From a virus: 38,792 nt of DNA. How positions within the stretch are numbered: the first letter of the stretch is position 1; each line of letters starts with the position of its first letter. Positions 21,081-30,893 of this stretch are shown here, piece after piece. The position numbers and the translations under genes are program-made. The DNA is taken from positions 1 through 38,792 of the IMG/VR virus record IMGVR_UViG_3300008120_008631; one strand, given 5' to 3'. The notes below the pieces were generated by a model. It made no database searches. It was given only the letters and a program-made list of their open reading frames with translations, and was not told the DNA's origin.

Positions 21081-21377
21081 ATGAAAAAATTATTACTTGC
21101 AGTCCCATTTATGTTATTACCATTTAGTTCTTTTGCCGCTGAGCCATCTGGTCAAGTTGCTAAAAAACCCGTTCTATGTTTTGCATTAGACGAGATACTC
21201 AACCATCTTAAATCTGAATATGGTGAAATAGTATCAAGAAAATTTGGTAAAATTGATTTTTTTGAAACTGATGCAATGTTGTTAGAGAACACAGAAAAAG
21301 GTTCTTGGACTATTATTGAATATAAAGATAATGTAGGGTGTGTTATTGCATCTGGTAAAGGTGCAAATAAAGTCTAG
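21081..21377 (+). CDS. Small secreted protein
   Basis: A 98-residue protein; ATG 21081 follows GAGGG. It has a signal peptide (MKKLLLAVPFMLLPFSSFA) and two cysteines (VLCFALDEI, NVGCVIASGKG) that may form a disulfide in the periplasm. The layout, 'KPVLCFALDE...GSWTIIEY...GCVIASG', resembles short proteins common in marine Alphaproteobacteria and their phages, with no known role. Its stop shares CTAG with the stop of the convergent halogenase gene. Confidence 0.75.
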   Translation: MKKLLLAVPFMLLPFSSFAAEPSGQVAKKPVLCFALDEILNHLKSEYGEIVSRKFGKIDFFETDAMLLENTEKGSWTIIEYKDNVGCVIASGKGANKV

Positions 21378-22534
21378 TTTATATATTTTTGTAAAGTATT
21401 GCGTATACCTAATTGAGTAAGATTTTGATTAAAAGAAATTGGATTCCAAGTACCATATTCAAATTTTTCTTTTAAATAGCCAAATTTTATAGTATCACTT
21501 TGTAAAATCATATCTACTAATTTTGAATTCTTTATTGCCTGATCTATTTTCAATTTACCATTATTTTTTGCCATTGACCAAAATCTAGTATCAAACGAAG
21601 ATCCAGCATAATAATGCAGCATGATCATAGCTTCTACTTCGTTAATAGTATCAAAATAAAGATTATTAACCCTGTCTAGTGAAGCTTCACCTGTCCATAA
21701 ACTAAAAGCAGATCTTTGAATTAAGTCCATAGTAGAAATTGATGTTGCTTCTAATGGTTCTAAAAAGAATGATGCATTACCGTTATAAGATATTCTTTTA
21801 CTGTAATTTTCTTTTCTATAATAATTGCCAAAAGAAAATGTATTGGTAATTCCGCTAGGTACTAGATTAAACTCCTCAAAAATATTCTTTACATCTTCTT
21901 TTACTTCTTCTAATGTATTAATATTATTATTGTACAAGTAACCAATAGAACATCTGTTCTGTAGGGGTATACCAAATACCCAACCATATGGTCTAGCTAT
22001 AGTTAATGTATATTGAAATCTAGGATATTCCCACATACATTGATTGACGTGCACTGAATTAACTGGAATATAATTTGATTCTATAAAATTATCTTTATTA
22101 ATTTCCGGTTTACCAGAACAATCCATTATAAAGTCTGCATCTATTTGATCTGATAATACATTTTTTTCTATAAATTTAAAACGTTTATTATTTTGCACTA
22201 ATGAAAAAATATATTCTTGAAATTTAACTGCATTAAAATGTATACCAATATTAGGGGGAGAAAAATGATGATGAAATTCTTTTACGTTAGTTCCCCAGTT
22301 TTGTTTGTATATAGATTCTTTTACTGTACCGTCTAACTTTTTTAAATCTTGATAGGTAAACCCTATATTCTCATAAAGTGCTAGTGGAAAAACTAAATTA
22401 GACCCTTCACCAACTGCTTGTGGTTTAATATTATGGTCAAAATACCAATCAATATCCCAATCAGTCCAACGCATAAAATGAGTTGCTGAAAAAGCTCCTG
22501 CAGTACCTTTACCTATGATTGCTAATTTTTTCAT
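21374..22534 (-). CDS. Flavin-dependent (tryptophan) halogenase-like protein
   Basis: A 386-residue protein. The FAD-binding motif GKGTAGAFSATHFM starts at residue 8, PQAVGEGSNLVFPLALYENIG matches the conserved region after it, and RPYGWVFGIPLQNRCSIGY corresponds to the halogenase GWxWxIPL block with Phe replacing the second Trp. LEPLEATSIS is the C-terminal FAD loop. Such enzymes halogenate tryptophan or other aromatics with FADH2; relatives with unknown substrates occur in marine phages. ATG 22534 is chosen because the longer frame runs into the tRNA-Val. Activity is not guaranteed given the changed motif. Confidence 0.8.
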   Translation of the reverse strand: MKKLAIIGKGTAGAFSATHFMRWTDWDIDWYFDHNIKPQAVGEGSNLVFPLALYENIGFTYQDLKKLDGTVKESIYKQNWGTNVKEFHHHFSPPNIGIHFNAVKFQEYIFSLVQNNKRFKFIEKNVLSDQIDADFIMDCSGKPEINKDNFIESNYIPVNSVHVNQCMWEYPRFQYTLTIARPYGWVFGIPLQNRCSIGYLYNNNINTLEEVKEDVKNIFEEFNLVPSGITNTFSFGNYYRKENYSKRISYNGNASFFLEPLEATSISTMDLIQRSAFSLWTGEASLDRVNNLYFDTINEVEAMIMLHYYAGSSFDTRFWSMAKNNGKLKIDQAIKNSKLVDMILQSDTIKFGYLKEKFEYGTWNPISFNQNLTQLGIRNTLQKYIN

Positions 22535-22551
22535 TTTTTCTTTTTTGTAAT

Positions 22552-22626
22552 TGGTGGGTGATGAGAGGGTCGAACTCCCGACATTCTCGGTGTAAACGAG
22601 ACGCTCTACCACTGAGCTAATCACCC
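22552..22626 (-). tRNA. tRNA-Val (TAC)
   Basis: Acceptor GGGTGAT/ATCACCC, loop TTTACAC giving TAC, T-loop TTCGACC, discriminator A and encoded CCA. The next gene starts 18 bases behind it. Confidence 0.94.
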
Positions 22627-29671: not shown

Positions 29672-29876
29672 CAATAAATTAGCGATAGTCTTTTTTGTGT
29701 CAGGAAGACTATCAAACCCCGTATAGACAGCCCATCCCACGTTTCGTCTATAGCGGAAGCAGAGTATACCGAGCAGGAGGCCCGAGTGGGTCTGCTACTA
29801 AACCTCACGCTTTGGTCTAGTTTGTCTGAAATTAAACGACTACCCAGGTATGACTACCGTAGTATTCAGATCAAAA
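29672..29876 (-). ncRNA. Structured non-coding block D
   Basis: 205 bases with no convincing open frame after tRNA-Tyr. The minus strand can form TCTGAA...TTCAGA, TATAGAC...GTCTATA (29722-29728 with 29746-29752), AGCAG...CTGCT, and a 9-bp hairpin GATAGTCTT/AAGACTATC (29684-29713) at its end. The last hairpin may stop transcription or protect the 3' end. No known class is recognised. Confidence 0.5.
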
Positions 29877-29961: not shown

Positions 29962-30133
29962 AAAAATTTAAAGCTGGGTTACTCATTCCCAGCAGTCGAT
30001 CTTCAAACGTGTCGACAGGTTCAGGACTTAAGACGTCTGTGCAGATGGAACCTCAGCCGTCCACTAGCTATATCCTCACTCAATTGCACAGCCATTAGTG
30101 AGGGATTAATAGGGATTCCAACCCCTACAATAT
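29962..30133 (-). ncRNA. Structured non-coding block C with a possible kissing loop
   Basis: 172 bases between tRNA-Ser and tRNA-Tyr, no reliable open frame. Hairpin 1 pairs 30074-30080 with 30097-30103 (7 bp) and hairpin 2 pairs 30017-30022 with 30048-30053 (6 bp). Their loops hold perfectly complementary 7-mers (30085-30091 and 30037-30043), which would form a kissing interaction. GTCGA/TCGAC and a 6-bp GCTGGG/CCCAGC hairpin (29973-29993) follow. The order suggests a folded RNA. Confidence 0.6.
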
Positions 30134-30303: not shown

Positions 30304-30545
30304 AAACTTCTTGTCTCTACAAGGATACATCAGCTATCTAACTTCCAATACCACTCGTTATTACAGCTGATTACCGATTCTGGGAAGCCTACCTCTACGT
30401 ATAGTAATGCGCGCACGCTTCGGGCTCTGATGTACCCATGAAGAGACAACTTACGTTGTCCTTCTGCCCTGCTGGAAACCACTTGTACGCTCATTCGAGT
30501 CCACGTACCAGTCAGGGGTTGTTCTTATACACTCGGAACAACATC
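30304..30545 (-). ncRNA. Structured non-coding block B
   Basis: About 240 bases from just behind a sigma70-like promoter to tRNA-Asn. In the minus RNA: hairpin GTTGTTC/GAACAAC (30542-30518), hairpin GACAAC-GTAA-GTTGTC with a GNRA loop (30460-30445), and an 11-bp long-range helix between 30437-30427 and 30333-30323, outside which TTGTCTCT and AGAGACAA can pair. A 7-bp alternative (ATCAGCT/AGCTGAT) competes with the long helix. No known class recognised; it might be part of a large RNA of the GOLLD or ROOL kind, which also lie near phage tRNAs. Confidence 0.6.
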
Positions 30546-30552
30546 GATTATT

Positions 30553-30581
30553 AATATAGTAAATTTGCAAATTATAATCAA
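30553..30581 (-). promoter_or_regulatory. Sigma70-like promoter of block B and the tRNAs
   Basis: Minus strand TTGATT (30581-30576), 17 bases, TATATT (30558-30553), then AATAAT as at the HTH promoter. Transcription would begin near 30545, right at the first hairpin of block B. Confidence 0.75.
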
Positions 30582-30595
30582 CTAAAAAAGGACCA

Positions 30596-30627
30596 TTAAA
30601 AAAGCGGCTCTAGTTTCCTAGGCCGCT
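30596..30627 (-). terminator. Terminator of RNA A
   Basis: Minus strand AGCGGC-CTAG-GAAA-CTAG-A-GCCGCT with TTTTTT after it (30627-30597). Its first arm shares AGCG (30627-30624) with the 9-bp stem upstream, so the two helices exclude each other. Confidence 0.85.
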
Positions 30628-30802
30628 CAACGTTTGTAAGACTATAACTATCTAACTTACGTTGAGCGCTCCATATCTTCTGACCATACGCCAGCATTCG
30701 GAGCAATCTGTCCGTTAAATGTTTGGCGATAGGTGTGTTTCAGACACGATAGAGTTAGCATTTAATGTTCCGTTTTGTAGTGACAAAATGGTATATTACC
30801 AT
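30596..30802 (-). ncRNA. Structured non-coding RNA A (late promoter to terminator)
   Basis: About 200 bases bounded by an exact late promoter and a terminator. Several perfect small hairpins are seen (ATGGTA-ATA-TACCAT, TTTTGT-CACT-ACAAAA), a TTAAATG/CATTTAA helix closing a GTGT/ACAC hairpin, GCTCC/GGAGC, and a 9-bp stem CGCTCAACG/CGTTGAGCG (30668-30660 with 30632-30624). A 15-codon frame near the 5' end has no ribosome-binding site. This looks like an independent RNA gene. Confidence 0.65.
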
Positions 30803-30808
30803 TAAATC

Positions 30809-30816
30809 TATTTATA
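30809..30816 (-). promoter_or_regulatory. Late promoter of RNA A
   Basis: Exact TATAAATA on the minus strand, about 7 bases before the first hairpin of RNA A. No protein gene lies directly downstream. Confidence 0.75.
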
Positions 30817-30841
30817 CGATTTTGACACTACACTCAGCAAA

Positions 30842-30893
30842 AAAAAATAATTTAATTGTAATGGGAGGGGAATGACCCCTCCCAATAATTACT
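30842..30893 (-). terminator. Terminator after the 135-aa gene
   Basis: Minus strand GGGAGGGG-TCATT-CCCCTCCC, an 8-bp G-C helix extended by weak A-T pairs, with a run of T's some 15 bases further. The G-C hairpin is certain; the delayed T-run makes the terminator call less so. Confidence 0.65.

Follow-up and report, generated by a model that had tools for sequence, protein, structure and literature searches.

The locus

The window, by which we mean the whole 38,792-nucleotide stretch analyzed here, is an IMG/VR record (38.8 kb) from a T4-like phage with genes for UvsX, a DnaB-like helicase and a DNA polymerase. Its closest named DNA relatives in our phage collection are T4-like cyanophages. 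Its 23 tRNA genes all lie on the minus strand. As a separate observation, this T4-like phage also encodes a tryptophan halogenase-like protein (phrog_2928; 21374-22624, minus strand).

The RNA studied here, RNA A, lies on the minus strand between a gene of unknown function (135 aa) and a region designated block B, which is followed by genes for tRNA-Asn, tRNA-Ser and tRNA-Tyr (Table 1). Block B has no match in Rfam or in the phage collection. It is conserved in all relatives (contigs with L numbers below) and looks structured, and in L006 and L063 a portion of it varies or is duplicated. Several other features of this neighborhood were observed, all on the minus strand. A hairpin (GGGAGGGG/CCCCTCCC, 30838-30883) that is set apart from a T9 run lies 3' of the upstream gene, and similar hairpins lacking a U-tract lie 3' of the same gene in L018, L019, L021 and L063. 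Unannotated GC-richer blocks that resemble structured RNAs are found between tRNA-Ser and tRNA-Tyr (29962-30133) and after tRNA-Tyr (29690-29876).

Table 1. Features of RNA A and its surroundings, in the order of transcription (positions in the window).
Feature	Position	Strand	Remarks
TATAAATA box, T4-late-promoter-like; tentative RNA A promoter	30809..30816	-	exact in window, L004, L018, L019, L063, L074
Hairpin near 5' end (AATGGTA/TACCATT)	30787..30803	-	same place, unrelated sequence in most relatives
P1, 5' strand (closing helix)	30761..30771	-	pairs with 30600-30590
5' GC corner	30758..30759	-	invariant; pairs with 30669-30668 in state A, 30605-30604 in state B
P2 arm and inner helices	30670..30755	-	30755-30748/30677-30670; 30733-30725/30692-30685; 30714-30711/30702-30699; five P2 pairs changed on both sides
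P4 (antiterminator of the earlier note)	30624..30668	-	30668-30659 with 30633-30624; apical helix 30654-30650/30642-30638
P5 terminator hairpin, GAAA tetraloop	30603..30627	-	invariant in 11 close homologs
U6 tract	30598..30603	-	invariant in 14/14 distinct sequences
P1, 3' strand	30590..30600	-	overlaps U-tract, extends ~14 nt past terminator stem; covaries with 5' strand
Sigma70-like promoter of block B and tRNAs, TTGATT-17-TATATT	30553..30581	-	place and 17-nt spacing kept in most relatives
Block B, ahead of tRNA-Asn	30305..30552	-	directly 3' of RNA A in every contig reaching so far

Relatives of RNA A

Protein-anchored scans and motif scans of viral contigs found RNA A in 15 IMG/VR contigs, which with the window comprise 11 distinct sequences (type 1). 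Using a covariance model and scans anchored on block B, we found a divergent type 2 in four contigs, with three sequences (L063, L072 and L074, the last identical to L075; E 1e-7 to 1e-9). There are 14 distinct sequences overall. Most of the 16-mer pattern matches (L009-L042) were rejected as chance matches, as were L043, L045, L046, L048, L049, L073 and L076, and none of 13 matches from a pattern scan of genome contigs was upheld by the covariance model.

RNA A is absent from S-SSM5 and AG-345-L05, two related phages whose records were scanned in full, and blastn against 50,697 phage records, with E up to 1, gave no match. Searches of Rfam 15, both at the gathering threshold and relaxed to E up to 5, reached no family cut-off for RNA A; only tRNAs passed, and the remainder were weak chance matches. 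No aptamer or other ligand-binding Rfam family matches RNA A, which counts against membership in a known riboswitch class. We read RNA A as a structured-RNA family that is new to Rfam and to the phage collection, and that holds an embedded, probably partial terminator.

A four-way junction supported by covariation

RNA A is about 180 nt long, and its predicted fold is more stable than expected (z -5.1). P1 closes a four-way junction from which P2, P4 and P5 branch off as the other three arms. An earlier note on this DNA had described the layout of an attenuator or riboswitch, with a terminator and an antiterminator that exclude each other; the competing element is indeed present, yet it is part of this larger junction, which the note had missed.

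Covariation over the whole fold exceeds that of 500/500 shuffles and of every slid register, with 15-16 pairs showing double changes. A plain MAFFT alignment shifts P1 by one base in four relatives, and these were registered by hand and later refitted to the model. In P1, 112/117 cells are paired and three pairs show compensatory changes, one of which, about 11 nt past the terminator stem, is C-G, A-U or U-A among the relatives. Because P1 covaries at these positions, the RNA past the U-tract is under selection. P1 forms only weakly in L063, and in L047 it is shorter. We also considered whether the true terminator might be a second U-run located after P1, and rejected this as a general feature since that run is missing in L021 and L047.

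Both P4 and P5 are kept in 10/10 close relatives, and are kept with altered sequence in the three divergent forms. In the upper part of P4, 100% of cells are paired, and two pairs show compensatory changes, in three sequences. These covarying pairs lie outside the bases shared with P5 and are compatible with the terminator. The P4 pairs that compete with P5 are invariant, have G-U variants or, in L019, a mismatch, and the corner bases are invariant among close homologs, so they provide no covariation for either state. In type 2 the P5 stem is rewritten as GCGCUC-A-GG-GAAA-CC-G-GAGCGC, by inspection. Given the invariance of U6 and this rebuilding of the stem with the GAAA loop and U6 kept, we regard the terminator as under selection. 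Compensatory changes uphold the upper part of P4, while P5 is invariant in type 1 and the shared bases do not covary. Covariation in favor of one helix only, which the earlier note had named as evidence against its proposal, was not observed, and neither helix is eliminated.

The terminator and its competing helix

The 9-bp stem that had been proposed from the sequence agrees with it: on the minus strand, 30668-30660 (CGCTCAACG) pairs with 30632-30624 (CGTTGAGCG), and a tenth pair, U30659-A30633, is possible. P5 has the form GCGGCCUAG-GAAA-CUAG-A-GCCGC (30626-30604), with an optional extra pair, A30627-U30603. The six T's said to follow it are present at 30603-30598, and the four bases said to be common to both helices are A30627, G30626, C30625 and G30624 (AGCG). 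The P5 hairpin, at -14.4 kcal/mol and with U6 after it, has the GC-rich stem and U-tract of an intrinsic terminator. Because of its bulge, a standard terminator scan misses the hairpin; a custom scan detects it, along with just two other strong hairpins that have a T-run, on the minus strand of the window. The 73-nt stretch containing both helices folds at -28.2 kcal/mol, compared to -13.6 +/- 3.0 for shuffles (z -4.9).

The claim that only one of the two helices can form does not hold in the window. There, the fold with full P4 has -28.2 kcal/mol, full P5 with a P4 of 6-7 bp has -27.0, and full P5 without P4 has -19.7, so that full P5 and a shortened P4 coexist at a cost of 1.2 kcal/mol. Energies in the other close homologs are similar, and across all close relatives this cost is about 0.4-1.2 kcal/mol. 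In view of these coexistence energies, P5 leaves P4 standing in the window and its close homologs, and merely swaps the partner of 3-4 bp. In type 2, the redundancy extends to 6 bp and is mutually exclusive (arms GAGCGC, GCGCUC and GAGCGC), which is the textbook arrangement of a 1:2 versus a 2:3 helix. In the L063 module, these two helices have -22.0 and -22.5 kcal/mol, respectively.

Two states and branch migration

We call the full terminator P5 with a long P2 state A, and the long P4 state B; state B also lengthens P1 in type 1 and in L072. In constrained folds of type 1, all 11 sequences behave alike: completing P5 extends P2, and completing P4 extends P1 through the 5' GC, which is invariant in these 11 close homologs and takes both of its pairings in each of them. 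All 14 sequences can adopt either state, with a gap of about 4 kcal/mol at most (-1.8 to +3.7), but these are nearest-neighbor estimates whose error is as large as the differences between A and B. When only the prefix up to U6 is folded, state A is favored in 13/14 sequences, the exception being the window, by 0.3 kcal/mol.

In state B of L072, the 5' arm of the long P2 pairs with arm 3, and the 1:2 helix, with a probability of 0.00 when the RNA stops at U6, reaches 0.82 when the full RNA can form the whole of P1. However, such a P1-driven shift is not universal, as the full-length RNAs of L023 and L007 still occupy the terminator state to about 98-99%. Natural sequences thus lean either way, L072 and the window to state B, and L007 and L023 to state A. 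On these models, RNA A may have "stop" and "read-on" forms, exchanged by trading base pairs between the stop-hairpin and a neighboring helix.

Promoters and read-through

Upstream of RNA A, the late-promoter-like box is exact in several relatives (Table 1), is GATAAATA in L072, and is TATATATR or TATATAA in the remaining ones; in the window alone, TATAAATA is not enriched. In some relatives the 5' hairpin begins directly at the box. Judged by its sequence, this combination of box and hairpin ahead of RNA A, found in most relatives, is tentatively compatible with a T4-type late promoter.

A predicted sigma70-like promoter, of the general form TTGAYW-17-TATATT in most relatives, starts about 16 nt after U6; in L018, L019 and L021 it is as good as TTGACA-17-TATATT. 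It had been proposed that read-through of the terminator leads directly into block B and the tRNAs. Block B does adjoin RNA A, but the sigma70-like promoter, placed after the U-tract in most relatives, would offer a second route, so that neither block B nor the tRNAs need rely on read-through. Read-through may add to the transcription from this promoter. In L074 (7505-7519), the 3' strand of P1 (UGCCU) falls on the -35 box (TTGCCT) in the block B promoter, so RNA pairing and promoter use common bases there.

Interpretation

Our best explanation, which we consider to have about an even chance of being correct, is that RNA A is an RNA of a T4-like phage clade in which a four-way junction with two states encloses a partial terminator. 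RNA A, which folds into a junction of P1, P2, P4 and P5, would probably be transcribed from the late-type promoter just upstream, and P5 and then U6 would act as its intrinsic terminator. The complementary corner bases would allow the junction to migrate between states A and B; in state B, the last GC ahead of the U-tract would pair with the 5' GC in close relatives and L072. With the polymerase at the U-tract, the 3' strand of P1 would still be unmade and state A usually favored, so a fraction of transcripts should end there, giving the RNA its 3' end. Transcripts reading on would complete P1, and some of these RNAs would shift toward state B, a closed full-length form. Selection on U6 and P5 argues for termination, selection on P1 argues for read-through transcripts, and because both are found, a partial terminator in a two-state junction is the simplest account. 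To the observed conservation, helices, covariation and near-equal energies, this account adds promoter use, partial termination and a function for both forms, all of which we infer.

A strong rival to the two-state reading is junction breathing in a static structured noncoding RNA, where P4 and P5 would be adjacent arms of the usual kind and P5-U6 would merely set the 3' end and shield the promoter that follows. We take this to be a serious possibility, albeit with a less than even chance. Abutting junction helices commonly share closing pairs, the cost of the swap is small, P5 resembles this phage's other strong terminators, and a fresh promoter follows it. However, a static RNA leaves unexplained why P1, with a 3' strand located past the terminator, covaries, and why arms 1 and 3 are redundant over 6 bp in type 2.

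The earlier note had favored an attenuator or riboswitch. In a regulated element of this kind, a ligand, protein or tRNA would stabilize state B before P5 closes, allowing transcription to continue into block B and the tRNAs. The competing arms are conserved, with arms 1, 2 and 3 kept in both sequence types and true 6-bp exclusion in type 2; the two states are near in energy, and RNA A is directly ahead of block B in every contig reaching that far. Nonetheless, mutual exclusion is incomplete in the window, the terminator state is preferred at the decision point in 13/14 sequences, the P4 pairs that covary differ from those that compete, no ligand-binding Rfam family was matched, and block B has a conserved promoter of its own just past the U-tract. 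We therefore consider regulation of this kind unlikely, if still worth entertaining.

Somewhat more doubtful is the idea that the mobile, Holliday-like junction is itself a termination switch, in which branch migration would move pairs jointly between the terminator with P2 and P4 (with P1), such that binding at any arm would set the ratio of short terminated to long closed RNA. Candidate binders would be a tRNA, a tRNA-processing enzyme or a phage protein, given that the long RNA would continue into the tRNA array.

We think it quite improbable that P5-U6 is a non-working terminator, such that RNA A would be cut from a longer transcript and the U-tract would serve as a linker and as one part of P1. 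P1 does covary across the U-tract, and the invariance of the whole of P5 in close relatives suggests a role beyond termination, e.g., docking of the GAAA loop; however, P1 pairing involves only 2-3 of the six U's, whereas the full U6 is retained in 14/14 sequences, even in L063 with its degraded P1. Finally, an RNA-based antitermination element acting on the polymerase, like HK022 put, and standing first in a long tRNA unit that is not translated, could fit a structured RNA close to the start of a transcript heading into a tRNA array, but it is very hard to reconcile with RNA A, which holds its own terminator, is followed by a fresh promoter and is far larger than put.

Comparison with known systems

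GOLLD and ROOL are associated with phages and tRNAs; RNA A, at ~180 nt, is much smaller, and does not match their Rfam models. Both are large, ornate RNAs (PMC12286853).

HK022 put and RNA A are both structured phage RNAs, although an action in cis on termination is only possible for RNA A. Put suppresses pausing and termination and is not known to carry a terminator, whereas RNA A has one, and the two appear to differ in size and fold. The action of put on termination is in cis (PMC9378689).

RNA A also resembles RNA C and RNA D of T4 in being a structured non-tRNA RNA with no assigned function beside the tRNA cluster of a T4-like phage. RNA C and RNA D are the species 1 and 2 stable RNAs of the T4 tRNA cluster. 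The likeness does not extend to a blastn match of RNA A in the 50,697 phage records (E up to 1), a comparison that assumes that T4 is in the collection. RNA A enlarges the set of poorly explained non-tRNA RNAs in phage tRNA regions, and has the support of covariation.

With attenuators and terminator-type riboswitches, in which the antiterminator is 1:2 and the terminator 2:3, RNA A has in common three arms with arm 2 shared, an intrinsic terminator with a U-tract, and near-equal energies. Unlike them, RNA A in the window swaps only 3-4 bp without losing either helix, ties this exchange to P2 and P1 through the four-way junction, and has neither a known ligand nor a following ORF, but instead a new promoter right after the terminator. 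RNA A presents a clear, testable case of a terminator within a four-way junction that would branch-migrate, and its natural variants incline to one state or the other.
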